Of a stretch of DNA of 64,000 nucleotides, positions 13,991-64,000 are shown one piece after another. Numbering within the stretch: position 1 is the stretch's first letter; each line of letters starts with the position of its first letter. The notes beneath the pieces were generated by a model. It ran no database searches and was not told the origin of the DNA. It was given only the letters and a program-made list of their open reading frames with translations. Origin of the DNA: Umbilicaria muhlenbergii (taxonomy: Eukaryota > Ascomycota > Lecanoromycetes > Umbilicariales > Umbilicariaceae); the NCBI GenBank assembly GCA_000611775.1, contig KK106982.1, positions 2,030,643 through 2,094,642 of the forward strand, read 5' to 3'. The position numbers and the translations under genes were made by a program.

Positions 13991-14095
13991 GCAGCCCTAC
14001 CCGCTCCGACGGCCTAACGACTTTACAAAAATTCGCGACGCCGAAAGAGTAGTCTAGTATTTTTTATAATACTATTTTCGAAAGTTCGAGCAAGT
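13991..14095. promoter_or_regulatory. 105-bp divergent promoter, CLC / Midasin
   Basis: Only 105 bp separate the outermost possible starts of two divergent genes. It contains an AT-rich stretch (near 14055-14075) with overlapping TATA-like sequence. If CLC starts at the internal Met, the gap is 183 bp. Confidence 0.5.
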
Positions 14096-20000: not shown

Positions 20001-23000
20001 ATCAGGATCTTCTTTTCTTACAACGATTCAGGACTGCTGAAGACAAGCATGCTGTATCTGCTATACTCGAGCAATATTTAATCCAGATAGCTCGTCACGA
20101 TAGGTATTTCAGAAACATCAGCCGTGAAACCCTTCAGGTAGGTCTCGCTGTGCTACGAAGGAATAGTTTGACGCAACCAAACCACACAACGGACCTCTAT
20201 GGCTCACACAAGAATATACCGATTATGGAATCGGTCATGCTATGTTTACAGCATAACTGGCCATGTTTACTTGTTGGTCAGTCTGGTTCAGGGAAGACAA
20301 ACATCATCAGACAGCTGGCAGTCGCCGTTGGCGCTGAGCTTGTCGAGTTTTCTCTGAACCCCGACATGGATACTATGGATCTGGTCGGCGGCTACGAGCA
20401 ACTTGATCCTTTACGGCGAGTTTCGAACTTTGTTGACAAATTACAGTCTGTTGTTTCTGATATGACAGTCATGCTGTCCGCGTCTTCAACCGTACCAGGT
20501 GAGGCCGTACACATCCTCGAGGAAATCAGTCACCCGGGATCGACAGATTTTGATGTGTTGCGCGAGCTATTGACCGCACTAATGCAGACTCATTCATCAG
20601 CAGATCTTGCTAGTCTAACAGAAGAGTGCGAGAGCATCCTGAAAAGCCCTCTTGCTGACACTGGGGCTCGATTTGGATGGATTGATGGCATCCTTGTTAA
20701 AGCTATGGAGCAGGGAAAGTGGCTTGTCCTCGATAATGCAAACTTATGTAGCTCCTCAGTACTTGACAGGCTAAACCCCCTATTGGAGCCCAACGGCTTT
20801 CTCAGTATCAACGAGCATCGCTCAGCTGATGGCACTGCCAAAATTGTGAAACCACATCCGCATTTCAGGCTCTTTCTAACGATGGACCCTCGCCACGGGG
20901 AGCTCTCACGAGCGATGAGAAACAGGTCAATCGAAATCTTCATCCCGCCACCCGAGCCATCAGAGGTGCGCAAGGTGTCGCCGTTCTCCTTCGAATCCTC
21001 TATTTCCCGTTTCATATCATTCCAAGACATTGAGTGGCCCAACTCCGACGATACCTCTTTGTTCCAGCTAGCCTCGACGTGCTTTGATCATCTCTCTTTC
21101 TGTGATATCGAACTGGGTCAACGCTGGTACGCGCAGGTGAACAAGGGTTTGCTTCAAACCACTTCGCCTGGGCAAAGCATACTTTTCTCAGTATCTAATA
21201 TATATTTTCGACTATCCAAAATTCATGAATGGCTCGTAAATAATATAAGGAAGCTGTCTGAGAAAGGCGCTATGGCAGCGGTCCTAGGATCGGATTTTGT
21301 TGATGCGCAGGTCAGTCGATATGCTAAGGCAAAGCGTGGAGGTCTCTTTGCTGATAGATGTATATACTCTATAGACAGTTCATCCACTCAATAATCCTGC
21401 CATCCTCAGACTCATTCCTGAACCCAATGTCCAAGCCGAATCTTATGGGCTCGCTGCACTTCTAGAGTTGTCAATAGACCTCTGCTTCCTCGAACAGCGC
21501 CTTGGAGCTGTCTACAACGGCACCAGTGGCAAAATGCCTTCGCAAAAGTCCCGATTGGAGAGGTCCATCGCCTCTGACCGCGTGCTCAGCTTCTCAAAGG
21601 ACTCGACGCAACAATTAGCAAAATTTCTGGAATCTATGCTTCGACTTACAGGTCAAGTAATAGACAAGCTGGCCATCAAGAAGCCCGTCGGACCGGTAAG
21701 CTGATTACCAGCCCGCTTAGTAGCTTTTTGCTGATGTGGTCTCAGATTGCTGTCAATTTCACAAAAGAAATGATATCTTACCAACGCGATATGTTTGACC
21801 TTGGAGACTCATCGGACTTTGACGATGGTGTCTTCCAAGTCTACCTGAGCGTTGGGAGGTCCATGATTGAAAATATCGGAGGAGAAGCAGCGCTGCAACC
21901 TTTTGTGGCGGCCATAGCTGAGGGCCTGAATTATTTCAATGCATCTTGGCGGTTATCTACCGGTCTCCGAATGGAGGCCTTATGGGCTGTCTTTCGACCT
22001 CCTACAGCGGCCGACCTACAGCAGCTGAAGGCAATATTACAGATTGAAGGGCTTGCAGACCGGTTCGATGCCCTGGGTTGGAAATCAGGAAAGTCGATTG
22101 AGCAGCTTTACTCAATGCAGAAATCTATAATACGGACCTTGCCCGCGATTCGATCATCTGCTTCGGACTTTGTTACGAATTTTTCTGTAAGAGTAAAGTA
22201 CAACGCTATATAGACAGTGCTGACAGGTGCACAGGAGGTTGACAGAGCGCTCCATGATCTCGAGAGTAGCTTCAACTCAATGACAATCGCCAGATATCCC
22301 TATTTTCAGGAAGCATTCGAGGCATTGTGCCAGTACCAAGCGTTAAATCAGCTCAATGGGTCGTTCGATGAAGTTTCTCTGTTGAACTTGCTTGCAAACC
22401 GTCCAACAAGGTCGATGTTTGCCCTTGAAGGGTGCAGTACTGGAGCGGGCCTCATCGCCCGCATTCAGAGACTCACTGGTACCAAAGTCACTAACTCGAC
22501 ATTGGTGCCAATGCAGAACACCTTACCCGTCTTACTAATTCAGAAGCTGTAAATCTCTAATTTTTCGCGCCTCTGAAACTGCAATATCTGCTTACATTTC
22601 ATGTAGATCGAATGTTGGCCACGTCTCGTTAGGACAGCTGGATCTCCTCCGTGACGAGATCGATGTTCTTGCGCCACATGTTGTCAGTACATGTGCTAGG
22701 ATTTCCGAAAATCAATTGCACGTGCTTAACACAGTTCTATATGGGCTGCATGCGGAGGTCAGTCAAGCACTAAAAGATATCAAGATGACCCCCGCTTAGT
22801 CCTTACAGATTTACGAGGCTCATGAGCACTATCTTCAACCACAATCAATGATCTCATGGAGAGAAACTCATATAAGATTTCCACAATCATTAAAGGACGT
22901 CAAAGCCGCCCAGAGACTGCCAGACATGAATCTAAAGCCAGGGGTGCCCGGTATCGACCCATTCCGCAGCGTACTTGAGGACTATCTTACTCCTTCCCTC

Positions 23001-26000
23001 TTACATATAAGCAGAATCCCTTACGAGGAAGACGCTGAACTCTGCCACACAGCTGCAGCTTGGGTACACTTCTTCACTGGTTGCTTGTATCTTTATGTTC
23101 CTGATCGGGCGTTTGATCCTGCACTTAAGCCACTTGTCGAGAGACAACGTCATCAAAAAAGGAGAACGGAGTTGAACACCAAGCTCAAGGCTCTTCGGCA
23201 GGTCGAGAGGTCCTCAAGCGGTCAAGCCACCAACCTGCGATGCTATCTCTTAGAACAGGATTTACTGACTTTAGGGGATGAGCCACGAGCACACTCGATC
23301 GCTCGACCTGATGTATCGGAGCTAGGGCAATTGCAGGGCGAATTCATAAGTATTCTGAGTTCAATAGTTAGAAGATCTCCCAATGCTTCAACGCTGCGTT
23401 CTATCTTCCAGGGCGACCAAGCTGCCTGCCAAGACATCGCGCTCCTCAGCCTAAATATCTCCCAGGCCATCTCTCGGCTCTCTGGCGGATTTCGGGCTTA
23501 TAGCGACCTCACTCAACCGGCTATAGGTTTACTGCAAGGCCTAGATGTTGGGCTTCGTCTGGCTACTATGGGAAGCACGGAAGCGCGCGTCTCAGCCAGT
23601 ACGCTTCGTCATGTGCATGACTTGATCCCGTTTCTCGGTGGGCGGCCTACTCGGCTGGAGCGGACTACCATAGAAGATATCAACGCTGAAGGTGCTCGTG
23701 GCTTCGATCACCGTTCAACGTACCTCAAGGCTGTAGCGCTGGCTTATAGTGTCGATCCAAGTTCAGTCTCCACTGATAGCCCTCGGAGGGTCATTTTGGA
23801 AGTCTTTCATGGCTTTTACGAAAACTGGAAGAAGCAGCTCGAGAATGATCAGGAACAGGCCGCCACCAAGTCCTCGTTGTATCGGTACCGTGGAAGTGAG
23901 GGAGATAATCTCGAAGCAGACGAACAAGACTTCCTAGAGCTGTTCCCAGACTATGATACGGCCGCAGTTGAGAAGACGAAAAGCCCCAGGAAGCCTAGTG
24001 AAGATCCCCAGGCATTGGCTCGTGAGCTCGCAACCTATCAAAGAGACATCTTCGATGGCGAGCAGACATCCTCGGACTTGCTTCTTGATATGATTCAAAA
24101 ATCGTCAAGTAAAGTTTCAGCTGCCTGGAAGACCACAGCCGGAACATCTAGATTCCAAATCCCAACAGAGAACTTGTTGCCTGGTGTCATCCTAGTTTTA
24201 GGATCGACGGTGGATTCACTGCAGGGAGGAATGGGCCTCCAAGAATCGTACAATTTCTACACGAGCCCAAACATGGCCGAAGCTAAGAATGTAATCGCAT
24301 TGGTACGAAAGATACAAAGTAGGTTCCTCGAACTCAAGAACGCTTGGCCAGAGCATGCCACCTTGGATGACGTTATCCGGACCTGCGACGAGCTGTTAAC
24401 ATTCCAGCACACCGAGCCAGTTGCCAAGATGTTGACGAAAGCGGAAAAATTGCACAGCTATGTACATGAGTGGCAAGTAGTGGCAAGTCGAGAATACTCT
24501 GCACTCACAATATATGACGAGCTCACGTCTTTGCTTGTGTCATGGCGCCGTCTAGAGCTTTCCACGTGGGCCAGACTTCTGGATATGGAGGACCGAAAGT
24601 GTATTGAGGATGCTCGGTCTTGGTGGTTCGTGGCCTATGAAGTTATCTTAGCAGCGCCTTTGTCAATGGCCAATCTACACGAAGACCTCAACAAGCATGC
24701 TGAGCACCTCCTGACGACGCTGGGAGACTTCCTTGGAATGACGCTCATGGGCCAGTATTCAGAACGTCTGCGCTTGATCGGACAGTTTAAAGACCACCTG
24801 GGCCTAATGATACAGGAGGTGCCGTCACTGGAAGTAGTGCATCGTGCACTGGTCAACTTCTTGGGCTTCTATACTCGTTTCGAGAAAACCATACATGAAC
24901 TGTTGCGGACCGGTAGACAAAAGCTTGAGAAAGACATGAAGGAATTATTGCTGTTAGCTAGCTGGAAGGACACGAACATCAACGCCTTACGGGATAGTGC
25001 GAAACGATCACATCACAAGCTCTTCAAAGTCATTCGTAAATATCGTTCCTTGTTGGCGCAGCCTGCGGAGAATGTGATCAGACAGGGATTGCCGGATTCA
25101 GCAGATGCCCCAACTCTGCTTTCGAGAACAAGAGACAGCCTTCTCATTCCTACTATGGACCAGTCTGCAAACCAGACATGTCAGCAGTTCGTCGAGGATT
25201 GGTCATCAAAACCCACTAGGTTCACCAACCCTCTGATCACGGCTTCGAGCATGGTTCGTATGAGTGAAATGCCAGATTCCGCAATTGATGGCGCAATGTA
25301 CTTGGAGTCATTCACCTCCAATCTCGTAGAGACCACCAAGGCACTGCAGAAGTTGACGCCTTCGGTGCTGACAAAGGAAAACACTGACGAGGTCAAGCAT
25401 CTCAAAAGTCGAAAGCGAAAAGTATTTGCCGACACTCTTAAAGAGATGCGGCAGATGGGATTCAGATCCAATATCGGCTCAGATCTATTGGCTAAGCAAG
25501 CATCGTTACCCATTGTACTTACAAACACAACAACAATCGATAACAAAAAATATGCCTGCGACTCGCCCGCCGTGGAATACTACTTTCACAAGGTGTTGGA
25601 TCTCATGCCACACATACGAGAGGCTTCTAGGAAGCACTCGGAAGAATTGACGAGCGTAGAGGTAGCTCGAAGTGTCGGCTACTTAGAAGGGATGCTTGTC
25701 CTTGCTTTGAAACAGAGGTCTGTTCTATTGTCGGCTCAAGAAAACTTGCATTCTTTGAGTCTAACAACGGTGGGAATCCAAAATCTATGGAGGCATGACA
25801 GATACAGTTTGCTGAAAAGCCATGTATCGACGCAAGTGGCTTACAAGGAACTCGAGACCACGATCAGATGGCTCATGTGTATGATTAATGTCGGTAATAC
25901 CATAATTCGGACGCACAACAAGCTCGGAAAGACTGATACATCAGCTGTGGTTGATAATCTTACGTTATGGGAGGCAAAATTCGCCGCTTTACTCAAAGCT

Positions 26001-29000
26001 TTCAGCGCGCTGCCCGGACTCCCCCTTGGTATATCTACGTCTCAACACGAGCAGACACACCAGGAAGCTGAGCAATCCTTGGAGCGTTTTAGGAACGATC
26101 TACAGGGATGGGCCAGCGATTATCCTAACGTCGGTTTTGTCTTAAGGCACATCTACTCGTGGACCAAACCCGCCTCAAATCCCATGAATGGACACATGAA
26201 TGGAGAGCAAGCCGTTGGGCTGAACCACTTGGACGACCGCCTTTCGACAATCGTAAACAGCGTGTTGGTTGCCGTACAACGTCTACATGATTGTCTCTCT
26301 AGCCTACCGTCGTCCGACGAAGACTCTGGCTGGTTGGTACGTGAAGATACAGTGCTCTCCGAGTCTTTCAGGGTCCTGCACCTAAGCGACATCGACAAGC
26401 TGCTTCGGGAAGCACTCTTGCAGATTCAGCATTTAGACACGACGAATGGTGATTCTCTTACGGTTGCAGGGGCCCTATTCACGATGGCATTGCCAATACT
26501 TCAGCAATACCAGAACATCTACTCGGTGGCGGTCAACCGTTACGAACGGCTTCATCTAGCTTCTTTGAAGATGGTACATGTTCTTGCTAAATCTTTCATT
26601 CAGATCGCTTCGCAAGGATTTTGTAGTCCGCAGGAGAAGTCTGCCGCTGAAGAAGGAAAGACCGAGAAGCTAGAAGGAGGAACAGGTCTGGGAGAAGGCG
26701 AAGGAGCCGAAGACATTAGCAAAGATATACAAGATGACGAAGATTTGTCCGAACTTGCTCAAGAGCCGATCAAGGATAAACAGAAGGAAGACACGCAGGC
26801 AGAGAAAGATGCTGTCGATATGCAGCATGAGGATATGGAAGGTGATTTGCAAGACGGGTCGGACAAAGGAGATGATGAAGAAGGTGGTTCCACAAGTGCA
26901 GAAGACGAAAATGAGCTGGATGAGGAGGCGGGAGGTGTTGATGATCTTGATCCTTCAGCTATAGATGAAAAGCTCTGGGATGGTGATGGAACAGAAGCTG
27001 AAAATGATAAAGAAGGTGATCAGTCGAAGGGCAAGGTACAGCCGGACGATCAGCTGGGTGCTTCAAAGGAGGACGAAAAGAATGAAGTTAATGGTGATGA
27101 GAAAGAGGAAGAGAGTGAAGGAGGTGAAGAAGATGCTCCCAAAGAGAGCGAGGAAGTTGCACGTGAAGAGCCTGAGCTGACTGATGCCCATATCAAAGAA
27201 GCACAAGCGTTGGATCTTCCAGAAGAGATGGACTTAGACGGTGACAAGAATTCTGAAGCAGGATCTAATTCAGATGATGACGGGCTAGACGAAATGTCGG
27301 ATATTCCACCGGATGATGCAGGTACTGAACAGGCAGAGACAGCGGATCAAGACATTGACGAAGGCGAGCTTGCCGAGCTTGACAAGCCTAGTAGCGAGAA
27401 TGGCGAGAATATTGAACAAGGGAACAAGACCGAGGATGCAGCTTCTCCGGTTGACACGGAACCAGACGACGACATAGCGAGTGAAGACCAAGGATTGCTG
27501 CGTGATCGCACTGATGAGGCCGCTATCGACGCCGACAATGCTGCTCCAAGTGACGTGCAAGGTATTGGCGAGTCTGCAGATCAGCAGGATAACGAGCATG
27601 AAGCATCTAGAAGTGCAGCCCAACAACGTGAGGGTAAGAAGGGCGGGCAGTCATACACAGAGAATCACGAAGCTGCGGCAGAGGATGGTTCACTTGGTGC
27701 GGTGCCTAGCAATTCCGAAGCCAGCCAAGCGCAAGACGAAGAAGCAATGGACGACAACGCGAACCAAGCTTTCAAGAAGTTAGGTGATGCGCTCGAAAAA
27801 TGGCACCGACAACGGCAACACATACACGATGCGGCTGAAGCGAATGAGTCAAAAGACAAGTCCCAGCCAATGGACGTTGACACAGCACAACCTGAGTTTG
27901 AGCATTTGGCCGATGAGGACGCTGAAGCAGATACACAAGCGCTTGGTAATGCGACTGAAGAACAAGCACATGCTTTGGACCAACGAGCTTTGGACTCCGA
28001 GATGCAAGACCAGCATCAAGAGTTCTTGCCTGACGATGGAAATCCCGAAGACCCGCCTGTGGAAGAGGATGTAGTGATGGCGGATTTTGAAACTTCTAGA
28101 AAGCCTCAAGAAGATCCCGAAGAACAGCTCCATACTGGCGCTCTGGTTGTAGAGAACAAGCATCAAGACCAAAAGGAGCGTACTCCTGGTGGAGCAAATA
28201 TGCGGGAGGAGGAAGACCTTGTGGAAATTGATAACGATCTTTCGACCATCCACCTCGAAACAGCTGACGACAATCCACCTCGGCCACTAGAAGAGTCTCG
28301 CCGTCTCTGGTCCTATTATGAGAGCATAACTCGAGATCTTGCTCTTTCACTAACGGAGCAGCTGCGTCTAATACTTGCGCCAACCCTGGCCACGAAGATG
28401 CGAGGTGACTTCCGTACAGGGAAGCGCCTCAACATCAAGCGCATTATCCCCTATATTGCTTCTCAGTACAAGCGGGACAAAATCTGGATGAGGCGTTCCG
28501 TGCCATCGAAACGAAACTACCAAATCATGCTTGCCGTCGACGACAGCAAATCCATGGGCGAGAGCGGAAGTGGCCAACTTGCCTTTGAGACACTTGCACT
28601 CATCAGCAAGAGTCTCAGTATGCTCGAAGCAGGCGAGATATGTGTCGTAGGCTTCGGGGACAAAGTCAGAGTCACCCACGAGTTTGACAAGACGTTCTCG
28701 TCCGAGGCCGGCGTGCAGATATTCCAACAGTTCGGATTCCAGCAGACAAAGACGGATGTTAGAAAGCTCGTTGCGGAATCCATCAATTTATTCCGTGAGG
28801 CACGCAGCAAGACTTTCAATGCCGGTGCCGAACTGTGGCAGCTGGAACTCATTATCAGTGACGGGGTATGCGAAGATCATGAGACTATTCGACGTCTTGT
28901 GCGGCAAGCCCAGGAGGAACGAATAATCATCGTCTTTGTGGTTGTTGATGCTCAAAAAGGAGAATCAATTATAGACATGAAGCATGCTACTTTCGAACCT

Positions 29001-29153
29001 GATGCTACTGGGGAGACGAAGCTCAAGGTCAGCCGGTATCTGGACGGCTTTCCTTTTGGATACTACCTTGTCGTGGGTGATGTGAAGGAGCTACCCAACG
29101 TGCTTGCAATTGCTTTGCGGCAGTGGTTTGCAGAGGTGGTGGACTCGAGCTGA
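14096..29153 (+). CDS. MDN1: Midasin, giant AAA+ ATPase of 60S ribosome maturation
   Basis: Mdn1/Rea1 strips assembly factors (Rsa4, Ytm1) from pre-60S particles in nucleolus and nucleoplasm. Six exons: 14096-21310, 21375-21695, 21746-22186, 22235-22548, 22607-22757, 22809-29153, totalling 4928 aa, the usual family size. Six Walker A motifs mark the AAA ring: FAGAGKT (Lys 311), GETGTGKT (646), GPTSAGKT (1082), GETGCGKT (1373), GSPGVGKT (1756), GQSGSGKT (2067), each with DE-type Walker B segments such as LLDEINLA and VLDELNLAP. A long helical linker follows, then an Asp/Glu-rich tail (about 26,640-28,250), then the C-terminal MIDAS domain with DDSKSMGESGSG (near 28,535), the D-x-S-x-S metal site that binds UBL domains. 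All five introns (48-64 bp) fall within 21.3-22.8 kb, just after the ring. Confidence 0.98.
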
Positions 29154-52302: not shown

Positions 52303-53220
52303 ATGACGCTATCCACCGAGAAGAAGAAAGCCCTTCGCGGCGACCTGTATCTTGCCTTTGTGCCGGAGCTCATTGCGGAACGGCGTCGATGTTCAAACGC
52401 CTGCCAACGTCTGAACACCGCCGGTGAGGTGTCGCGGCGGAGGCTGGTGGAGCTGTGGAGAGCGTAAGTCTCTCCATCTGCTCGAGATCAGCCCGCACGC
52501 TTTGGTGTGTGGACCATCAGCATCAGTGTTGCAAATGCTGACCGGTGTGTTCTGCTGGCAGGATCAATGGCGACGACAGACCATTACCACCGCAATTACC
52601 GGATGCCGAGCAGGACGCTGCGCAATTCGATGACGAACCCTGGATCGAATCTCCCATCCGGGTGGACTACGGCACCAATGTTCGTCTCGGCACCAACGTC
52701 TTCATCAACTTCAATTGCACAATCCTAGATACATGTCTGGTCACCATCGGCTCCCGTACGCTCATCGGTCCGAATGTATCCTTCTTCAGTGGCACGCACC
52801 CGTTGGATCCAGAACTCAGAAACGGCACCAAGGGCCCTGAGCTTGGAAAGGAGATTCACGTCGGGGAGGATTGCTGGATAGGTGGGAATGTCATTGTGCT
52901 GCCGGGGGTGAGGATCGGTAGGGGCGCCACTGTCGGTGCTGGAAGTGTGGTCACAAAGGTATGATGATTACGTCGAGACCTTGCTATACCATGGACTTCT
53001 TGAACATTCACTTGATGATGCTGCATGATAGGACGTCCCTCCGTTCCACGTGGTCGCGGGAAATCCGGCACGTATCATCAAAAGAATCGAAACTAATATG
53101 GATCCTGCACAACATCGCATTACGAACGGAAAGACTACGGTTGAGGTGGCAGGAGCCGAGAAGCCAATGCGTGACATGGCTGAGCGTCTTGATGGACTGA
53201 AGAACGGTACAAGCATTTGA
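52303..53220 (+). CDS. LacA/NodL/Maa-type hexapeptide O-acetyltransferase
   Basis: Trimeric left-handed beta-helix enzyme that uses acetyl-CoA to acetylate a sugar hydroxyl; exact substrate unknown. Exons 52303-52463, 52562-52958, 53032-53220 (248 aa); introns 98 and 73 bp. The Mac domain is at the N-terminus (MTLSTEKKKALRGDLYLAF, ELIAERRRC). Hexapeptide repeats follow, with the catalytic His in FFSGTHPLDPELR and the signature GGNVIVLPGVRIGRGATVGAGS. The third exon supplies DVPPFHVVAGNPARIIKRI, the typical acetyl-CoA-contacting end, plus a short fungal tail. I chose the Met at 52303, since the Mac domain starts there; an in-frame Met at 52,245 would add 19 residues. Confidence 0.92.
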
Positions 53221-53565
53221 TTCGAGCGAACACATCTGCATGATACCCTGGTTGCAAATCCTGCTTTTCGACCTTTGAGAGCTGACTTCAACCTAAGTTC
53301 GAGTGAAGAACGGAAGTGCTGCTAGATGTACATACTCATACAACATCACTAGTGTTGACTCACCACTACTGTTCCGTGAAGGATGAGCTATAGAGTCATG
53401 AGCAATTCATCTACCTGTCTTCATCCCCCATCAACTACAAATCCAAGCAGTTAACCTCCTCTCCTTCCTTCCACCTGCAACCACAATCGAACATCTCCGA
53501 CACCTTCCCAACCACCCATCCTCCCAAACAACTCTTCTCAAACTCAGCCAAACACTACCCCAGCC
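53221..53565. other. Intergenic region upstream of SprT-like copy A
   Basis: 345 bp between tandem plus-strand genes. The last 150 bp are strongly C/T/A-rich, a probable 5' leader. No gene recognised. Confidence 0.5.
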
Positions 53566-54367
53566 ATGGCCTACACCGTGCCCGCCGACGACCGCGACCG
53601 CCAAGACCGCTACGAAGAGAGCTTCTCCGCCCGCATCTCCACCCGCACCGGCGAAGCATACCCCTGTTCCCAATCCCTCCTCGACGACCTAACCGACGAC
53701 ACCCGCCCCCTCCAAAACAACCGCTACGTCCCCATGGAGGACGCCGTGCTCGACCTCGTCGACTACCTCGGCCCCTCCTTCCCCGGCGCCCGCAGCGCGC
53801 CGCGCGCCCAAGCGCTCGACCGCCTCCGCGCCTCCGCCACCACGCGCTTCTGGCACGCCGATTTGGTGTTCAAGGCCTTCGGCGACTTGGACACGTTGTT
53901 CTTCCGCCGGCGACTGAGGGGCAATGTGCTGCTGCGCTGGATCACGCCGGACGGGGTGGCGGCATTGGCGGCGGAGGGGTATGCGCCGGCGATGGGGTGG
54001 GTGAGGAATTATCGGCCGGGGCCGGGGGAGAGGACGGTGAGGGAGAAGATTGGGGTTTTTTTGAACGCGGAGGAGTTGCTGTTGGGGGGCACGTTGATGG
54101 ATGTGTGGAAGACGCTGTTGCATTATATGGTGGTGAGTTACATTGATGATCTCTTTTGGGCGGGTGTGGGCTGGTGAGCAACTGATATGGACTGTGCAGC
54201 ACGCGTATCTTGTGGTTATGACGGGCCGGTTTGGGGATCCGGGCGATTTGGACGGGCCGTCTTTCGGGCGGTGTTGGAGGGCTGTTGAGCATCAGTTCCC
54301 GTGGGATTTACCTTCTGCGGGCGACGTTCATCCGCTCCGTACTTACAGGAGGGGTGGTGCGGGATAA
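53566..54367 (+). CDS. SprT-like protein, copy A (substituted active site)
   Basis: Member of a local family of SprT/SPRTN-like proteins. Exons 53566-54132 and 54200-54367 (244 aa), 67-bp GT-AG intron. Seen in order: GEAYPCSQ near the N-terminus (the family's YPC motif), the SprT helix ADLVFKAFGDLDTLFF, the strand RGNVLLRW, then the zinc motif, which reads HYMV at the exon end and HAYLVVMTG after the intron. SPRTN-type proteins have HExxHAYL here, so the catalytic Glu is Tyr. The usual third ligand in a G-H-G-P-x-F context is LDGPSF here, with Asp in place of His. I infer loss of protease activity; a binding role is possible. Copies B, C, D and relic E lie next to it on the other strand. Confidence 0.78.
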
Positions 54368-54794
54368 CCGAGTCGGACTGTGGCCGTCTTGGAGGAGCAG
54401 CTTGTACGAGAGGTGGGGAAATGGTGAGATTTGGTATGCTTTGTTGCAAATCGCAACCACACCTTTGTATGCAGCATGCTTGCCTGGAGTTTGCGTTTTA
54501 GGAATACTGTCTAGTCAAGTAGTTAGGTGACTGCCTTGGTGCTTAATGAAGTTGCATGCCTGGTTTATGAACTGAAGTCAACAACATTACTCAAAGCTAC
54601 CTTCTTGAAATCGTGCATCCAACCACGTCCTGAATGCTCAAACTCTGGAACAGACCTCGCTACAAGCAATACCCCTATCCTAACATATCCGCACCATCTC
54701 TGCCATAAGGACACAGTAACTCATCGAGAAGTAGCATTTTGTTCTCGACTGCATGCAAGTAACCCTCCGAAACATCTCGGGAGACCTTCCATCC
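54368..54794. other. Convergent gap between copies A and B
   Basis: 427 bp between the stop of copy A and that of copy B. No gene recognised. Confidence 0.45.
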
Positions 54795-55839
54795 CTACCA
54801 CGGAGGGTGATGTAGCCGGCCCGGGAAGCGTGAGCGAACAGCTCGGCGGCATCTCTGGAAATACGGGCCATGAAACGGATCCATTTTCCCGCTCCGATCA
54901 AGATGCCCCGACTCAGAGGCCTTATGATCGGTACGAAGGACAAGGTAGACATGCTAAAGGCCCATTCGTCAGCACCGACCGACACAACAACGAAAACGCA
55001 AGCACGATGAGCCCGATCAACCAACCCACTCCCAATCATCTCATGCAACACCACATCCCAAACATGCCGCAGCTCGACCCCCTTCCGCAGCAGCAACCGC
55101 TCGGCGTTCAAAAAAACCCGCGCTCTCCCCGCTTCCCCATACATGTCCCCGCAGTCCGACACCCCCAACGCCGACTCCGGCCCCTGCCGCTTCTGGAAAA
55201 ACTTCTCCCCCTCCCACCTCAGCAGCACCCGCCCCTGCAGCTGCCCCGCAAAGAACGCCCGATCCAAATCCGCCCAGGCCTTGAACATCAGGTCCGGCCC
55301 CCACTGCCGCGGATTCTTGCCTTGGTCGCGGAAGCGGCGCAGCGCGGCGACGGCGTCGGGCGAGGTGGTGAAGTAGGGGCCCAGGGCGTCTTCCAAGTCG
55401 GAGCCTGCTTTTTCGGCCGTGAGGACTGGGAACGTGGCGGGGGGGAGGAGGCTTTTGTCGGTGAGCAGGGCGAGCTCGCGGCTGGTGTGTGGGTAGGCGG
55501 TGCCGGTGTTGACGGTGGTGGGGGGGGTGGGAAACTGGCGTCGTAGCGGGCTTGGCGGGCTCGACGGTCGCGCTCGGGGAGGGTGAAGGACAGGGAGGCT
55601 TCGCGGATCTGTTGCTCGCGGTCGGGGAGAGTGAAGGCCCGGGAGCCTATGGCGAGGTTGGTTGCTTGGCTTTTGGAGTGGGTGGTATAAGGGCGAGACA
55701 GGGTGAAGGGACTTTGGCTATGACTAGGATCAAGGCGAGAGGGTATGTTGCTCGTGGATGGATCGAAAAGGAGGACGCCATTGAAATGACTTGTATTTGT
55801 AGTGATGGATGGCGAAAAGACTAGCAGTGAACTGGACAT
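54795..55839 (-). pseudogene. SprT-like copy B, probably decaying
   Basis: Paralogue of copy A on the opposite strand. Coding-like pieces: an N-terminal part from 55839, then NTGTAYPHTSREL, GPDLMFKAWADLDRAFFAGQ, RVLLRWEGE, FLNAERLLL and LHEMI; the second exon from 54953 gives HVYLVLRTDHKASESGHLD and FHGPYFQRC before the stop. Two defects are seen. The N-terminal part and the rest are in different frames, meeting at a run of eight C (plus-strand G 55520-55527). The intron (54954-55033) starts GGGAGT where copies A and D have GTGAGT and GTAAGT, so the 5' splice site is lost while the acceptor TTTAG is kept. The zinc ligands (HEMI-H, HGPYF) remain intact. A homopolymer sequencing error could explain the first defect but not the second. 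Confidence 0.7.
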
Positions 55840-56493
55840 AACACCACAGGCTTGACTTTATCCGAACTTGGTGTTGAGTAAGGACCGGTGGTGTTGTATC
55901 AGCGCACAGCAACACCACGGTCTCAAATTCAAAGAGTCCTTGAATTAGGCCAAGTGGCTTCGAAAGGATGAATCAGTAACCACAGTAGCATATTAGGGAA
56001 GACATTGCGTAAAGAGGTCTGCATCACTCTATAGGGAACAATCTGCACAATCAAAAAGAATACAACCTATAAAAGGAACTGGTGGAGCAAGGGATATATA
56101 ACTGGTAGCAAGCTTATTCGACAAAACCAGTTTCTATCGAGTGGGTCTTCCTTTACGCAGAGTTTAAAGTAGAATGACTGTACTACTCTCCGTCTTCTGC
56201 TTCATAAAAATATAAGAACAATAGGAAACCAACACGGGATACATGAAGCACGATTGGAATTGAAACATGAGTACGGACTTCCAGGTCCAAGGCCTAATAC
56301 AATTGCATGATACTAGTAGAAGTGTTTTGGTTAGCCTTCCGCTTGCTTTTCGAGCTGATAGCCTGAGGATTACAAGGCATAATGGTTTCTTCCGCATGCG
56401 TACCTCATGTTGGCAACAGATATCGTGCATCACTAATAACAACTCGCCAGAACTCACAAGGCTCAAGTATCATCACTACCCACCACAAAGCCA
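55840..56493. other. AT-rich gap between copies B and C
   Basis: 654 bp, AT-richer than its surroundings. It carries a strong plus-strand TATA sequence (TATAAAAG, 56,068-56,075) with no supported gene downstream. It should also hold the promoter of copy B and the 3' end of copy C. Confidence 0.45.
56068..56075 (+). promoter_or_regulatory. TATA-like element without a supported gene
   Basis: TATAAAAG in CCTATAAAAGG context. The next plus-strand open frame (from 56,267) runs antisense through the 3' third of copy C and shows no family likeness. Confidence 0.4.
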
Positions 56494-57246
56494 TTACCAA
56501 TCCAGCCAACCCCTTCGTCGACCATGGCGCCGTTCGTCCTTCTTCCCATCAAATTTAAAACCCGATCTCCACCGCGAATCCCACTCCTGCCTGTTCCATA
56601 CGTCCTCGCAACCTATGATATCCTTGAACCCGCCACCCAACCTCTTCAACACCGCTTTGGCACACTTATTGAAACAATTGCCATGCCCACCAGTAATCGC
56701 ATCGCTGTCCCCTCTATCTCCATTAGTCACGACCAGTAGATACGCATGCACCATCTCGTGTACCAGTGTGGAAAGCACATCTCGCAGCCCAACGGTGGCA
56801 AGCGTAGCGTGAGTCATGCTCATTTCGAGCTGGCAGCGAGAGCTGGTGACGAGATTGTACCTGGTTACGCCGAGGGTTCTGCTGACGGGCCCATTCAATA
56901 AATCGCTGCGGTCGTCCCAGCGGAGGTACACATTTCCCTTTAATTTCCCGCGAAACAAGAGCAGATCTAGATCGTTGAAGATTTTGAAGATGATATCCGG
57001 TCCCCAACGCTGAGCTTCTTGCAAGTCATTAAGTCGTTTAACGGCAGCCTTTTGGGCGTCTGATAAAGGGCCGTTGTGGGCTTGCTGAAGAAGCGATGTC
57101 GCTTCAATCCGGTCGATATAGTGGCGATGCCGGACGCGTTTTGCATGCGGGTCTTGCAGAACGTCGATTTCCTCTTGCGTGCATGGGTAGGGAGTGCCCC
57201 GGTCGGCGTAGACTTTGGTGTCTCGAGGGTCCTTGCGGAAGAACAT
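56494..57246 (-). CDS. SprT-like zinc-metalloprotease-like protein, copy C
   Basis: Intronless, 250 aa, the best-preserved copy. Starts MFFRKDPRDTK, then the family motif YADRGTPYPCTQEEIDVL (residues 13-30). A helical spacer leads to the SprT-like core: RWGPDIIFKIFNDLDLLLF and KGNVYLRWDD, then LSTLVHEMVHAYLLVV, a complete HExxH, followed by GGHGNCFNKCAKAV, matching the third zinc ligand of SPRTN-type proteases (GHGPxF). The C-terminus is Lys/Arg-rich (DGKKDERRHGRRRG), perhaps for nuclear targeting or nucleic-acid contact. SPRTN/Wss1-type enzymes cleave DNA-protein crosslinks, but this family's substrate is unknown. No intron interrupts the zinc motif, unlike A, B and D. Confidence 0.82.
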   Translation of the reverse strand: MFFRKDPRDTKVYADRGTPYPCTQEEIDVLQDPHAKRVRHRHYIDRIEATSLLQQAHNGPLSDAQKAAVKRLNDLQEAQRWGPDIIFKIFNDLDLLLFRGKLKGNVYLRWDDRSDLLNGPVSRTLGVTRYNLVTSSRCQLEMSMTHATLATVGLRDVLSTLVHEMVHAYLLVVTNGDRGDSDAITGGHGNCFNKCAKAVLKRLGGGFKDIIGCEDVWNRQEWDSRWRSGFKFDGKKDERRHGRRRGWLDW

Positions 57247-57954
57247 GGGAGAGATCTTGCACGGCTTGCGTTTCTTGCTTAAGGGATAGAGGGCTAAAGA
57301 TTAGGAGGTAGCAAAGATTGCGGGGCAGAGAATGAGAAAGTACGAACATGGTACACGAAGATGGAGATGCTGGTTATGACTGGCAGTAATACTGATTCAC
57401 GGACATGTAACAGTCACAAAATGACTCTTCCAGCAGGTTCAAGTGAACAAGAAAAGGCACAGTCCCTGGTGCCAGCAGAGGACAGTCGGACGGAGAAGAT
57501 CATGACCAGTGAGCCGTAGAGGTCTGGCAGCAGTGAAGCAGCCGCTCAAACAAGAAACATACCATACTCCAAACAAGAAACACAGCACATGTCCAAGAGA
57601 CCGCCTTCATTTCTCTGACTGTTTGACCTTATGTCATTGTCCATGGCGGTTTTTACAGGCCCGAGTACAATAGTACGCACAACGCAACTCCGTTAGCATG
57701 TTCTACTCAAGAGCTTCGACACCACTGGCTCATGATGCGAGATCTCTCTTAAGTGCGCACACTCCATTTTAAGGAAATTAGATATTATCAGTGAGAAGTA
57801 GAGGGAATGTAGTTGGGATAGTGAGAAAATATGCTGCTTGCAGGCTTGATATGCGAAGTGGAGGCTAATCCACTTACGGCGTAGTCACATGCGCCGCGGC
57901 AGCGGCCCCTACTCTCTGCTTTCCTAGATCTCCCATTCGGTGGCTGGTTTGTTG
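57247..57954. other. Gap upstream of copy C
   Basis: 708 bp between the start of copy C and relic exon E, presumably holding the promoter of copy C. No gene or repeat recognised. Confidence 0.45.
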
Positions 57955-58133
57955 GGCCTCTATTATGGATACTATGGTGAATGTGCAGTATAACACAATC
58001 GGCGCCTCCCAATCGAGTACCTAGTGAGAGCGTCCACGCATCTCCGCATCTCAGGAAACCTGTGCCGTGCCCCGGGCCATGAGGCTCATCATGATCATGG
58101 CAGTTCTCGGTTGAGAATCCAAAGGTAGGCATG
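57955..58133 (-). pseudogene. Relic SprT-like second exon (E)
   Basis: A stretch matching the second exon of copy D: a splice acceptor (CACTAG) at the same place, then HAYLWIL, and after a one-base frame change ENCHDHDEPHGPGHGTGF, LRCGDAWTLSLGTRLGGADC and ILHIHHS. Copy D reads HAYLEVI, GNCFDLDE, PSHGRHFKRCLQAVSARLGG and LGLHHEF at corresponding points. The third zinc-ligand context GPGHGTGF is kept. No first exon is found in the 388 bp before it, so this is a partial duplicate. It lies downstream of copy D on the same strand, so it could in principle act as an alternative last exon; read in D's frame it stops after HAYL plus eight residues. Confidence 0.6.
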
Positions 58134-58521
58134 CTAGTGCAAACACTGATTTCGGTTCGATTCTGCAGAACATGGTGCTGAGCGTATTTCGTGTACTCAA
58201 GGTTCCTTCTCCGGTAAACTTATAACACACTCGAAGAGAGTAGAGAGCACGTCCTGGGGCAGGGTTATCAACGAGGAGGTCTGTGAATCAGAAAGCGATC
58301 TAATCTGTCAATGTTGGAAGACGGCATATCATGTGCATGCTCTTGTTGCTCGCAAGGCTTTGACTCCCAACATGGTGTGAGATTCACGTGTTCGATCTTC
58401 TTGTTGATGCATGTGAAGTAGCAGAAACACGAACCAAGCTGTGGCACTGCAAGCTTGGTGTATCGATAAGGAGGGAAATTGCAAGTCACAATGTGGCAGG
58501 GACAAAGAGACCGATCACCAC
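58134..58521. other. Gap between copy D and relic exon E
   Basis: 388 bp holding the 3' untranslated region of copy D. No SprT-like first exon or other gene found. Confidence 0.45.
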
Positions 58522-59502
58522 CTAGTATCGCCATATTACACCAGGAACGTAATTACCCCAGGCCACAGGTCCCGTAAGTTCCCTTCTGCCCCTCTCATGG
58601 TGTCTTCTTCGTCCTCGCTCGTTCTCGGCCAATTCAACTTTACTGAAGCCGCTTTTCCACCTTGGAGCCCTAGGCATCCTGTCAAGGAATTCATGGTGTA
58701 AACCCAGCGGCACGTATTCGGACCCACCAAGCCTGGCACTCACAGCTTGCAAACATCTCTTGAAGTGTCTACCGTGTGATGGGTCTTCTACCTCGTCGAG
58801 GTCAAAACAATTACCGCAAATGACCTCGAGATACGCATGCTAGATATGTATCAGCTCCTATCCTCTCATTGCGGTCGAAGACCATTCTAGCCAATTTATA
58901 CACGATGTAGGCCATGGATGACTTACGATACACTCATGCACGAGTGTGGATATCGCATCCCTCAACCGTGTCGTCGAAAGCTGCAGTATATCTTCGTTTA
59001 GCACCATTGTGACCCTTTTGGCCTTTTTCCCGGCTTTTATCACCACGCCTGCACACCCACCGTCCTCCTCAGTTTCCAGTACATCGTCAGAAATCCAAGA
59101 TAGATAGACATTGCCGTTGCAGACGCCTTGGAAAAGAAGAGTATCAATATCGTTAAATATCTTGAACACGATGTCCGGACCGTATCTTCCAACCTTTTCT
59201 AAATCCTGTAATCGCTGAAGCGCAGCCTCTTGACCGGCATTGAGAAGTTTGCCAGGTCGGTGCGCATTCTCGAGACGACGAGTTGCTCCACCTATAGACA
59301 TGTGTTTGTCAGGATAAGTACGGGGCGGTAGATTCCTATCTTGAAGCTCATCGATCGTGGCCTGAGTGCAAGGGTAAGGAGTCCCACGATCGGCGTAGAT
59401 CTTGTACTCCCGGTGGCGATGGTGATAGTGATGGGGATGTGCATGTTGACGGTCATAGTGGTGACCCCGACGCTGCCGAAGCTCTGAAAAGGCGGAAGAC
59501 AT
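58522..59502 (-). CDS. SprT-like zinc-metalloprotease-like protein, copy D
   Basis: Exons on the minus strand 59502-58927 and 58839-58522 (297 aa), 87-bp GTAAGT-TAG intron. Start MSSAFSELRQRRGHHYD; the frame is open further upstream (Met at 59,646) but that part has no counterpart in the other copies. A His-rich tract (HAHPHHYHHRHRE) precedes the family motif YADRGTPYPCTQATIDEL. The core is YGPDIVFKIFNDIDTLLF, NGNVYLSW and VTMVLNEDILQL. The zinc motif HECI-HAYLEV is complete only after splicing, because the intron falls between the third x and the second His. The third-ligand context is DPSHGRHFKRC. The C-terminus is basic (ERGRRRHHERGRRE). Closest to copy C within the cluster. Predicted zinc protease; substrate unknown. 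Confidence 0.8.
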
Positions 59503-59709
59503 TACGAGTGGAAGTAAGAGTGTGGAGAGCTGAAAGTGTGTGTTGTCTATAAATGCCAGAAGCAGTCCTGATACCTCCACCAAAGTTTGATAATTCGGTT
59601 CTAGACGCAAGGTATGACTCATAGCGCTAAGTGAATACATTATCATGTATTATTCATTGCTCCCAGGTGTAGATGGGCATGACAAAAATGGGATGTCGAA
59701 TTCTCCTTT

Positions 59710-61448
59710 TCAGGACTGGGATTTGCTCACGCTACCGTACTTGGCTTGCCATGCGAAGAAGTACAGAAGTGCGGCAAGCGGTTGACCAACAAGACAAAAG
59801 CTGACCCAAAAGATACAATTTCCAACGATCTTACCGTTGATGCCCTGCATCTTTTCGAGGGGTAAGGTTGCAGCAACGAGGGGTATCTGGACAACCATGC
59901 CCACGAATGCAACACCTAAATCCCAGCAGGCCTCAGTATATGTTAAAAGAGATCCACAGATCCGGAGACTACTTACCTATGATGTTGTGTGTTGGTACAC
60001 CCACCAACAACTCGTGGAGGATACCAGAGAACACAAAAACCATTGTACTGGCCGCTTGCGACGTCCATCCACGCCCCACCAGTGGGGAATAAATGTGTCG
60101 CTTCATGAAGTGGTACACTGGTTTGTTCCACGTCCTCCAGTACGTGCCGACACTTGGACTATTCCACCACTCGGTATAGAACTCTCGGTCTCCGAATCTC
60201 ATAATCTCCGCCAGTGCGTTCAGAAAAGATTCAAACAGTGCAAAGAAACCTGCCAACCAGATAATGAGAGACACCGTCGAAAGCTTCATCAATCGCTCGA
60301 TGATTGATGCAATATCAAGAGAAGCCATCTTGTTGAGAGAGTTGCGTAGAAGTGGCGCCGCGTACTGGGCAGAAGCCAGCCATATGAATATGCTAAGCCC
60401 AACCACTTCCGCCATACGTTTCGCAACGAAAGTCCAGCGAATGTTCGATGATCGAGGATACACCGGCTGATAAACAAGTGTCGGAGCCCACCAGAAGTAC
60501 GAGAGGTTGCTAAGCGTTACGTTTTGGGGATACGGACACGCTGAATATATTTCTGGTAACGAGGCGGCTGTACCCGGATGGAGAAGTGCGTGGCGAAGGT
60601 CGCGGTTCGTGAAGGCATAGGATGAGTTCTTCAGCCAGACGATAATCGCATGAAGCTCGCACATGGTGCCGATGAGGGGATGATGGATGGCAAAGAACAC
60701 GGTCAAAGTAGTAACCAACAAACAGAGGGTAGCGTTAACTGTATGAGCCAAGGCAATGTAGCGCCAAATTGATTGGAACTCTTTCTTCTCGCGGTCGTTG
60801 TCCTGGAGATCATCGCCGGTTTCATCGCGCTTCCTGCGTCCTATTGCTCCTTTGGCTTGTTGTACTGCAGCCAGTTCAATGACATAGGCGGCAAATAAAT
60901 GACACGGGACAAGCGCATAAAGGATGGCGCCGAGGATCACATCTTGACGCCGGTAGTCATGACATCGGATACAAATCAATACTCCGTACTATAGCTGAAG
61001 TTAGTCTCGAATCAACACGAGGGAGGCTTGCCATGCCTTCAAAAAGTTCTCCACCACAAGCCGCAGATTCATGACAACTAGATAGAATCCCTTTGTCAGC
61101 TTCGGCTCAATATCGGACGCATAACATGGGCACTTAAGCTCTCGAGTTGGGAGGGAACCCACTTAGTACAAGGACCATCAAGTTCCGAAAACCAAGAAAG
61201 CTGGGGCTGGCTTCTGAGTCGTGACTCAAGCATGACATCCGAGGTTCCCGATGCACAGCTGCAACATGCCTATACTTTCCCGGAGCTCTCCTAGCAGTTG
61301 CCGGAAGGGGGGTATTATGGCTAGTACCCCAGTTGGCTTGTACGGTGCCATTGGGACTTCTAGATGCTTTGGGACCATCTTCAGTGTCCGGAACGCGTGT
61401 CACACTCGCCATCATCGCCAGTGCAGGTTGAGGTGGTATTGAACTCAT
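59710..61448 (-). CDS. Diacylglycerol/sterol O-acyltransferase, DGAT1/ACAT (MBOAT) family
   Basis: ER multi-pass acyltransferase making triacylglycerol or sterol esters for lipid droplets. Exons on the minus strand: 61448-61163, 61077-61037, 60988-59977, 59915-59710 (514 aa). Exon 2 is only 41 bp; the intron after it (60989-61036) must use a GC donor (AAG|GCATGG) with a perfect GACTAAC branch site, giving NLRLVVENFLKYGVLI, the DGAT1 hallmark. Later motifs: FYTEWWNSPSVGTYWRTWN (FYxDWWN type, with Glu for Asp), PVYHFMKRHIYSPL and the catalytic-His segment SGILHELLVGVPTHNI. DGAT1 seems likelier than sterol acyltransferase from NLRLxxEN and the W-N-x-P-V signature. N-terminal 95 residues are polar and cytosolic. 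Confidence 0.88.
60989..61036 (-). other. GC-AG intron in the DGAT1-like gene
   Basis: 48-bp intron with donor GCATGG, branch site GACTAAC and acceptor CTATAG. The only GT nearby would leave a 30-bp intron, too short to splice. Removal restores the conserved ENFLKYGVLI segment. Confidence 0.75.
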
Positions 61449-61952
61449 AGTGACTGCGTGAGAGAAGAAAGGAAATGGGAATAGAAGTTCAAACAGTGTG
61501 ATGTAAGAAAGATTGGGGAATGGTTAACGCGGTATCCTTGGTTGCAGAAGCGGAGTCCAGAAACGCCATTGTGGAAGATATAAGAGGAGATGGGCTGCTC
61601 TTGTTTCAGAGGTTTGCGTATGTAGTGGTGTTTGGGGGAGACTAAGGTACTGTGCTCTATCAGGTTTGTCGGGACCGGAACCAAGGGACCGTTGCCAAGC
61701 ACAGGGAGCAAGGCTGTTCGTAGCTTATGCACGTGCGCACGTGTGCACTTCCGCAATTATACGTCTACAGGTACCTACCTTACCTTTACTGCGGTACTCG
61801 TACGGTAGTTTGACTTGACATGGTCAGCCAAGGACCGAAGCAATTCTTCATACTACCCATCGGGGCCCCCGTTGACCGTTAGTATACCCTCTGGGAATCA
61901 ACCAGCTTGATCGAGAACGTGACTTCTTACTGTTGATGGCTTGAGAAGCGTA
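61449..61952. promoter_or_regulatory. Divergent region, DGAT1-like / PFS2
   Basis: 504 bp between divergent starts. No TATA box or gene recognised; a palindromic GCACGTGCGCACGTGTGCAC stretch lies at about 61,730-61,748 and contains two E-box-like CACGTG/CACGTGC elements. Confidence 0.5.
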
Positions 61953-64000
61953 ATGGACCGCGACTACCAAGGCGCATACGGAGGCGGAGGCGGAGGGGGC
62001 TACGACGGAGGCTATCGAAGAACCATGGGGCGGAGTGAGTGACAGGTCCTGAAGCTGTTGTGGACAAACGACACGCAGCTGTACTCTGTTTTCTAGCTGC
62101 AAGCTAACATCAAATTCGCTGTCAAGGGCCTATCACGGACTATGGCTCTTCGATGGTACAATGGATGCGGAATCGACGACCGCGACACAAAGGAGGCATG
62201 CTTCTGGAGATGGAGAGGCCGAGTCCAAGCTATATAGTCGATGTATGTAGCTCGAGCAAGCATATGTACATACTTCCATCGCGTTTCGTCCCTCTCTGAT
62301 GCGCCAATTGCATGAAATAGATGCTCCCTCCGGCTGCGAAGCCCCAAAGTGCAGCCGATACTATACCTTCCAAGCACCTCCACTCCTCCTTGAATAAAAT
62401 CAAACATCCTGTTAACATAGTACGATGGACGCCGGAGGGTCGCCGGCTTCTTACGGGCTCCAGCAGTGGGGAATTTACCTTATGGAACGGAATGGGCTTC
62501 AACTTTGAGACGATAATGCAGGTTAGTGCAGGCCTTCATTGCATCGGTGTGCTTACCTCGGTGTCTGTATTCAAGGCTAACGCTATGCTGTAGGCACATG
62601 ACTCCGCTGTTCGAGCAGCAACGTACTCACACAGCGACGACTGGCTAGTTTCAGCAGACCAAGACGGAGTGGTCAAGTACTGGCAACCCAATTTCAACAA
62701 TGTCAAAGCAATACAAGCTCACAACGACCCTATCCGAGACCTAGCATTCTCTCCCAATGATTCAAAGTTCGTGACTGCTTGCGATGATTCTACCCTAAAG
62801 ATCTTTGATTTTTCAGGTGGAATAGAAGAGTCGACACTGTCTGGTCACAATTGGGATGCCAAGTCTGTTGACTGGCATCCTACGAAGGGCCTAATTGTCT
62901 CGGGGTCTAAGGACCATCAAGTCAAACTATGGGATCCTCGAACTGGTCGTTGTCTGACGACTCTGCATGGCCACAAGAACACCATATCGAAGACCGCATT
63001 TGAGCCTACAAGAGGCCAGCTATTAGCAACATGTGCTCGAGACCAAACCGCTCGGGTCTTCGACCTCCGCATGATGCGCGATATCTGCCTTCTCCGTGGT
63101 CACGAAAAGGACATCTCTACCTTAACCTGGCATCCCTTCCACGTGTCATTACTTACAACCGGTGGATCCGATGGCAGTATCTTCCACTATCTCCTAGACG
63201 AACCGAACAGCCCACCCGGCACAGTAACCTCAATACCTCCATACGACACTTCCGACCCGAGCAACGCCCCCGCACAGACCATCCATCCCGCCCACCGCCT
63301 CCAATACGCCCACGACTTCGCCGTCTGGTCCCTAGACTGGCACCCACTCGGCCATATCCTCGCCTCCGGCTCCAACGACCGCGTAACCCGCTTCTGGACC
63401 CGCGCCCGACCCGGCGAGACCGAATGCTTCAACGACCGCTACCACATCGGCGAAGCTGCCGCCGAAGCACAAGGCACCTGGGACCGGCGCGGCGGCCGCA
63501 GAATGATGCGCGAGGAAGAAGAACAGGAAATGGAAGACGAAGCAGAGGGACTCGTAGACCAGAAGATGCCCGCTAAACAACCCATTCTCCCCGGCATCCC
63601 GGGCCTGACGGCCCCACTTCAGAAAGACGGCACCAGCGTCGGTGGCGCACAGATGCGACTTCCAGGCATGGGTGCTGGCGCGCCTATACCGCCGCCCTTC
63701 CTCGGAGGCATGCCTGGGCTCGAAAACATCGCTACTATGGCGCCGGCCGAGTTCAAAGCCATGCTCGCGAGCGGGAACTTGCCGCCTCCGCCTCCTCTTG
63801 GCGCTCCCGGCGTACCCGGACAAGGTCTACCACCGCCACCGCCGCCATTGCCGCCGAATTTTGACTTTTCAAAAATCCCGCCGAATTTCTTCCCGCCGGG
63901 ATTCCAGTTGCCGCCGGGGTTTCCGCCGCCGCCTCCTGTGACTAACGCCAATGCTAATGGGGGAGGGCTGCCGGGACTGGGTGCTGATGGTGGAGGTGGA
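61953..64000 (+). CDS. PFS2: Polyadenylation factor subunit Pfs2/WDR33, 5' part
   Basis: WD40 scaffold of the cleavage and polyadenylation factor that helps recognise the AAUAAA-type signal of pre-mRNA. Exons 61953-62034, 62127-62242, 62321-62521 and 62594 to beyond the window edge; introns 92, 78 and 72 bp. The N-terminus is Gly/Tyr-rich ([13 protein letters not shown]) and leads to [21 protein letters not shown], the Pfs2 signature, then [12 protein letters not shown]. Seven WD-type repeats follow, with [61 protein letters not shown] and [15 protein letters not shown]. After the propeller come an acidic helix ([14 protein letters not shown]) and a Pro/Gly-rich tail with PPPPP runs that is still open at 64,000, so the C-terminus is missing. 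Confidence 0.95.

Follow-up and report, generated by a model that had tools for sequence, protein, structure and literature searches.

An old tandem family of short SprT-like genes, probably zinc metalloproteases of the SPRTN branch, in Umbilicaria muhlenbergii

A 64,000-nucleotide stretch of the Umbilicaria muhlenbergii genome (C2:2030643-2094642 of a 34.8-Mb genome in 7 contigs; hereafter the window) carries, between 53.6 and 59.5 kb, a cluster of five related elements in the order A> <B <C <E <D. The elements belong to one SprT-like (minigluzincin) family, and the cluster is best read, with a probability of about 0.62, as a tandem array of long standing that encodes short zinc metalloproteases, probably intracellular, from the SPRTN branch. 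On this reading, C and D would be active, most likely on protein that is bound or crosslinked to DNA, while A is probably dead, B is a pseudogene and E is a relic. The first-pass annotation of the window had described four copies and a relic exon; the relic is real, whereas the array proved to consist of three intact frames, one broken gene (B) and one relic.

The homology that had been proposed among A on the forward strand, B, C and D on the reverse strand and relic E was recovered at the positions listed in Table 1. Translated searches within the window (tblastn, word size 2) returned E values of 4.6e-39 for C against D, 2e-20 for A against C, 8.7e-19 for A against B and 4.6e-6 for D against relic E. 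Controls at the default word size fell well short of these values: five query pieces searched against the rest of the window (1-52500 and 60501-64000) gave a best E of 0.056 among 25 rows at E <= 10, and for reversed queries in 53000-60000 the lowest E was 3.5, among 4 rows. All four copies contain the F-K-x-F/W-x-D-[LI]-D helix and the N/R-V-x-L-x-W strand, while the YPC motif, also thought to be shared by all, is present in three and reads YPH in B. The expected pairing of A with B and of C with D is borne out by exon-1 identity (42% and 43%, with 29-30% for the remaining four pairs), and identity between the cluster copies and a dispersed relative on the same contig is 25-27%. In a five-row tree, A and B group together with moderate support (87/86), neither of the two inner branches is starred, and the branch of the dispersed copy is very long.

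Kinship with SprT/SPRTN, as first suggested, holds for C and D and is weak for A taken alone. Against the Pfam SprT-like model (PF10263, curated cut-off 25.6 bits), C scored 35.6 bits, D 32 bits and A 14.1 bits, with no match in the pieces of B or in relic E, and the cut-off was thus passed by two of the five copies; A is tied to the family through its homology to C and D. In profile searches of the PDB, SPRTN came first both for C alone (E 0.0027, 3 rows) and for D alone (E 0.0013, 11 rows). A profile built from four rows (A, C, D and the dispersed copy) matched the SPRTN structures 6mdw (9.8e-7) and 6mdx (2.2e-6), and just one further row, unrelated and with E 0.37, appeared at E <= 10. At E below 0.1, SPRTN is the sole PDB hit for this profile and likewise for C and D alone. 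In addition, A-D share with SPRTN a HAYL or HVYL that follows HExx. A Foldseek search with a low-confidence model of the C core lends weak support: of its 95 matches, 6mdw ranked first, with E 0.023, a probability of 0.99 and a template modelling score of 0.47 by query. The N-terminal YPC region common to A, C and D matched no Pfam family over cut-off by itself, and NCBIfam returned one unrelated row (E 0.14) over 6 proteins.

The complete HExxH...H zinc site initially ascribed to all four copies is found in two, C and D. It reads HEMVHAYL with a downstream GGHG in C, and HECI/HAYL with a downstream SHGR in D (the slash marks an exon boundary), while in B it is split into two pieces. In A, a Tyr replaces the catalytic Glu (HYMV/HAYL) and a deletion lies at the position of the third His; A is probably a pseudoprotease despite its intact two-exon frame, which is open, has two normal-looking splice sites and would encode 244 amino acids, and it may either serve as a regulator or be on the way to losing its function. 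C and D (297 amino acids predicted for the latter) are both predicted from their sequences to be active. By homology, the two His of HExxH and the third, downstream His would hold the zinc, and the Glu would activate a water molecule to cut the peptide bond, as is usual in the family. The C-terminal tails of C and D are rich in Arg, with 11 and 9 Lys or Arg among the last 40 residues against 5 in A.

A predicted phase-0 intron divides the HExx/H motif in A and D, the same boundary is seen in the remnant of B, and relic E may have had it. C and the dispersed copy have no intron at the zinc motif, and a further SprT-like gene on contig C6 keeps its HEYCH in one exon. The predicted zinc-motif intron shared by these copies is a signature of the cluster.

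The copies have been diverging for a long time. Codon comparisons were made with a GY94-type model with composition correction, over either all columns or strict columns (those with gap-free surroundings), and the ratio of nonsynonymous to synonymous rates (omega) was below 1 for all six pairs. For A/B over all columns, omega was 0.31 at a synonymous divergence (dS) of 1.9, and omega = 1 was rejected (twice the log-likelihood difference, 15.4); over strict columns omega tended to 0 and dS was off scale. For C/D the estimates were omega 0.07 and dS 9.1 over all columns, and omega 0.15 and dS 3.3 over strict columns, while dS of the other four pairs was beyond measure. Synonymous sites are therefore at or near saturation, which indicates that the duplications are old; such saturated pairwise estimates mean that the protein was constrained for most of its history and have no bearing on the present day. 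The possibility that A and B diverged under rapid or positive selection was considered and rejected: the NG86 counts for exon 1 (dN 0.65, dS 0.57), which taken alone would point to relaxed or positive selection, give a ratio near 1 that is a base-composition artefact of GC-rich third positions, and the corrected model removes the signal. The idea of a birth-and-death cluster thus stands for its deaths, the broken B and relic E, but the births are old, with dS of 9 or more in five of the six pairs over all columns.

Old divergence between the copies would also fit ancient duplications shared by many fungi, and there is a real, though less than even, chance that the same array occurs across Pezizomycotina as ordinary conserved orthologues with nothing lineage-specific about it. 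The housekeeping genes nearby, namely midasin, PRCC and a homologue of AVO1/Sin1, are in keeping with this possibility. Fungal proteome annotations may already label such genes 'SprT-like', and a table row for Aspergillus oryzae names one SPRT-like metalloprotease gene (PMC6171174). Among the papers listed on fungal SprT-like genes and on the evolution of the SPRTN family, no title or abstract concerned a fungal tandem SprT-like array, which is no proof of absence, as preprints and most subscription papers lay outside that scope. Should many fungi turn out to share the array, its description would be a routine gain in annotation.

Relatives elsewhere in the genome are few. A genome scan with PF10263 marked four places: gene C, a locus at 6.878 Mb of C2 and two exons of the one C6 gene. 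The scan missed D, A and B, presumably because the search was made exon by exon and these copies are split or weak, and the scan therefore gives a lower bound. Protein searches of the genome returned 8 rows for D, 5 for A, 6 for C, 3 for the dispersed copy and 1 for exon 2 of B, and a single row, on C1 (E 0.84), lay outside the cluster and the dispersed copy. The dispersed relative (C2:6877743-6878621) scores 39.6 bits as SprT-like and matches C (E 2.9e-5) and D (E 0.016). It shares HAYL and an FRGTLKGNVHL core with the cluster but has neither YPC nor the motif intron, and its zinc motif is HQMIH, the same Glu-to-Gln change as in the laboratory-dead SPRTN E112Q, for which autocleavage and rescue are reported to be abolished (PMC9240642). 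The C6 gene (C6:1233102-1233736) is of GCNA type, with a SprT-like domain, a SprT zinc ribbon over cut-off (37.4 bits) and a sub-threshold HMG-box match (E 0.12). GCNA (PMC5098910) and Podospora PaHMG7 (PMC3730723) are reported to have this architecture. The WLM (Wss1-type) model gave four rows at three places, on C1, C3 and C5. The statement that SPRTN/Wss1 proteases are usually single genes hence fits only in part, the genome holding one GCNA-type gene, one HQMIH copy and three WLM places besides the cluster. In the genome scan for the SprT zinc ribbon, only C6 among five rows passed the cut-off and none lay in the cluster, so no full SPRTN was found in the genome. Scans of bacterial/archaeal contigs gave 47 pattern matches and those of viral contigs gave 33, none of which was confirmed as a relative.

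Compared with SPRTN (6mdw, 6mdx), the cluster proteins have the same HExxHAYL active-site helix and downstream His, but they carry a longer N-terminal region with YPC and occur as tandem copies, some of which lack catalytic residues. The zinc-binding subdomain of SPRTN, reported to assist cleavage and to have a secondary DNA-binding function (PMC9240642), was not found in them: at E <= 10, none of A, C, D and the pieces of B had a row for the Zn_ribbon_SprT model, and CxxC occurs once in D, inside the core, and not in A or C. Scans with simple patterns found no SHP-like or PIP motif in A, C or D, and the general Pfam scan gave no UBZ row, no dedicated UBZ model having been tried. GCNA, which is characterised by a large disordered region, a zinc finger and an HMG box, and the fungal SprT-HMG proteins (Podospora PaHMG7, Neurospora NCU06874; PMC3730723) share the SprT-like protease domain, whereas A, C and D show no zinc ribbon or HMG row in Pfam and the cluster proteins are only 244-297 amino acids long. 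Wss1/WLM proteins belong to the same wider protease group (PMC5098910), but A, C, D and the pieces of B gave no row with the WLM profile at E <= 10, in a search whose HMMER filters drop most rows above about 0.1. The motif context differs as well, the GCNA-type gene of this genome reading HEYCHLAN and one WLM gene HELAHN, against HExxHAYL in the cluster.

SPRTN is reported to perform DNA-dependent cleavage of DNA-bound proteins (PMC9240642). Kinship with SPRTN through the HExxHAYL helix, together with the Arg-rich tails, makes protein bound or crosslinked to DNA the most likely substrate of C and D. Since no zinc ribbon and no p97- or PCNA-binding motif was seen in simple scans, recruitment must differ from that of SPRTN and might involve the N-terminal YPC region peculiar to the family. 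By eye, none of the N-termini resembles a signal peptide, and the proteins are therefore taken as intracellular. The role first suggested for the cluster, in DNA repair or conflict, is an inference. It is rather unlikely, yet worth weighing, that C and D are SprT-type proteases whose substrates are not bound to DNA but are other intracellular proteins, for example during development or in contests with rivals or viruses. The missing SPRTN ribbon and motifs would suit this alternative, and crosslink repair could already be covered by the three WLM places and the GCNA-type gene; however, the nearest relative of known function is SPRTN, the tails of C and D are basic, and nothing points to any specific alternative substrate.

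B is broken in at least two ways in the present assembly. Both HEMI and HVYL...FHGPYF are present, but in separate pieces with no normal GT donor to connect them in frame; the frame changes at a run of C, the donor reads GG, YPC has become YPH, and a Leu stands at the position of the start Met of A. Errors at homopolymer runs are common in long reads, and the frame change could be an assembly error, as which the GG donor is harder to explain. It is improbable that B is intact and only seems broken because the C run is misassembled and its splice donor is atypical: in-phase GT sites do occur further down, but these (e.g., GTTGAT) would insert residues within HExxH, and YPH and the Leu would remain as further defects. 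Relic E is a real relic. Its alignment to exon 2 of D scores 98, a score reached by none of 300 dinucleotide-preserving shuffles (best shuffle 45). That E is merely exon 2 of D was rejected, since D has its own exon 2 and E is an extra copy. A candidate exon-1 tail of E is suggestive only: its observed score was reached by 189 of 300 shuffles against D exon 1 and by 38 of 300 against whole C. At the expected splice donor of this stretch stands ATAAGT, and TAG/HAYLW occurs at 58133 in another frame.

Terminal decay of the whole array, with no present role and with C and D as survivors on the way out, is improbable: two of the five copies are broken, one lacks catalytic residues and the dispersed copy has lost its Glu too, but C and D, although far diverged at synonymous sites, retain complete frames and every catalytic residue, and frames kept open for so long suggest selection. 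Building on the reading of the cluster as a protease family, it may be speculated, as a long shot, that the SPRTN branch survives here only as protease-only miniature tandem genes and that the Glu-less A and dispersed copy are kept as regulators or decoys of C and D. Proteases acting on crosslinks have been studied mainly as multidomain genes (SPRTN, GCNA, Wss1). A fungal tandem set made of the protease core only, with naturally dead siblings, would offer a small system for studying how such a protease is restrained and for asking whether dead copies regulate live ones.

Several points weigh against the view of the cluster as a SPRTN-branch protease family. A and B lie under the Pfam SprT-like cut-off, and in searches of the genome query A missed the dispersed copy while exon 2 of B matched only itself. 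Structure models from the four-row alignments were poor (mean predicted local distance difference test scores of 37.5 and 42.1), and none of the 95 Foldseek matches reached E <= 0.001. Moreover, the introns of A and D are predicted from sequence. No DNA-binding domain was found in the cluster proteins, and a basic tail alone is weak evidence for DNA binding. Present-day selection on A, C and D is unproved, as copies of one genome were compared.

Table 1. Elements of the SprT-like cluster, in positions of the window
Feature	Position	Strand	Description
Gene A exon 1	53566..54132	+	189 codons; YPC, FKAFGDLD, GNVLLRW; zinc motif starts HYMV
Gene A intron (predicted)	54133..54199	+	67 nucleotides, GTGAGT...CAG, phase 0, between HYMV and HAYL
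Gene A exon 2	54200..54367	+	HAYLVVMTG..., stop included; third zinc His missing
Gene B exon-2 homologous frame	54795..54953	-	HVYLVLRTD...HGPYF, stop included
Gene B intron-equivalent	54954..55033	-	80 nucleotides; starts GGGAGT rather than GT; ends TTTAG
Gene B exon-1 homologous frame	55034..55525	-	YPH, FKAWADLD, GRVLLRW, VVLHEMI
Gene B N-terminal homology	55593-55531	-	different frame, across C run
Gene C single exon	56494..57246	-	250 amino acids; YPC, FKIFNDLD, GNVYLRW, HEMVHAYL...GGHGNCF
Relic E	57953..58105	-	decayed exon 2; 43% identity to D over 51 columns
Possible remainder of relic E	58106..58256	-	QDVLSTLFECV remnant from 58256 down; suggestive only
Gene D exon 2	58522..58839	-	HAYLEVICGN...SHGRHF..., basic tail, stop included
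Gene D intron (predicted)	58840..58926	-	87 nucleotides, GTAAGT...CTAG, phase 0, between HECI and HAYL
Gene D exon 1	58927..59502	-	192 codons; YPC, FKIFNDID, GNVYLSW, STLVHECI

Gene content and short introns point to a filamentous fungus, and the surroundings of the cluster look ordinary. In a Pfam scan, 13 of 17 neighbouring frames matched ordinary families and 4 had no match at E 0.001; besides the midasin, PRCC and AVO1/Sin1 homologues, the matches include NSRP1, a DNA/RNA nuclease, a ZIP transporter and an ICMT-type methyltransferase, and the cluster is flanked by a hexapeptide transferase on one side and an MBOAT acyltransferase on the other. Two giant open frames of 2458 and 2117 amino acids occupy 14018-29153 of the window; the former is midasin-like, and the latter, unmatched in Pfam at E 0.001, may form the remainder of that gene. 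An island mutated by repeat-induced point mutation was considered and rejected, as TpA/ApT stayed at <=0.85 and (CpA+TpG)/(ApC+GpT) at >=1.03 over 32 steps of 2 kb, judged against the usual thresholds; no sign of such mutation was seen in the window, in which no dedicated transposon search was made. An inverted match of 18 out of 20 bases links 53561-53580, at the start of gene A, with 58901-58920, in the intron of gene D, and may be due to chance. The cluster (53566-59502) straddles a change in base composition, and GC content at third positions is 0.82 in A, 0.86 and 0.57 in the exon-1 and exon-2 pieces of B, 0.60 in C and 0.50 in D.

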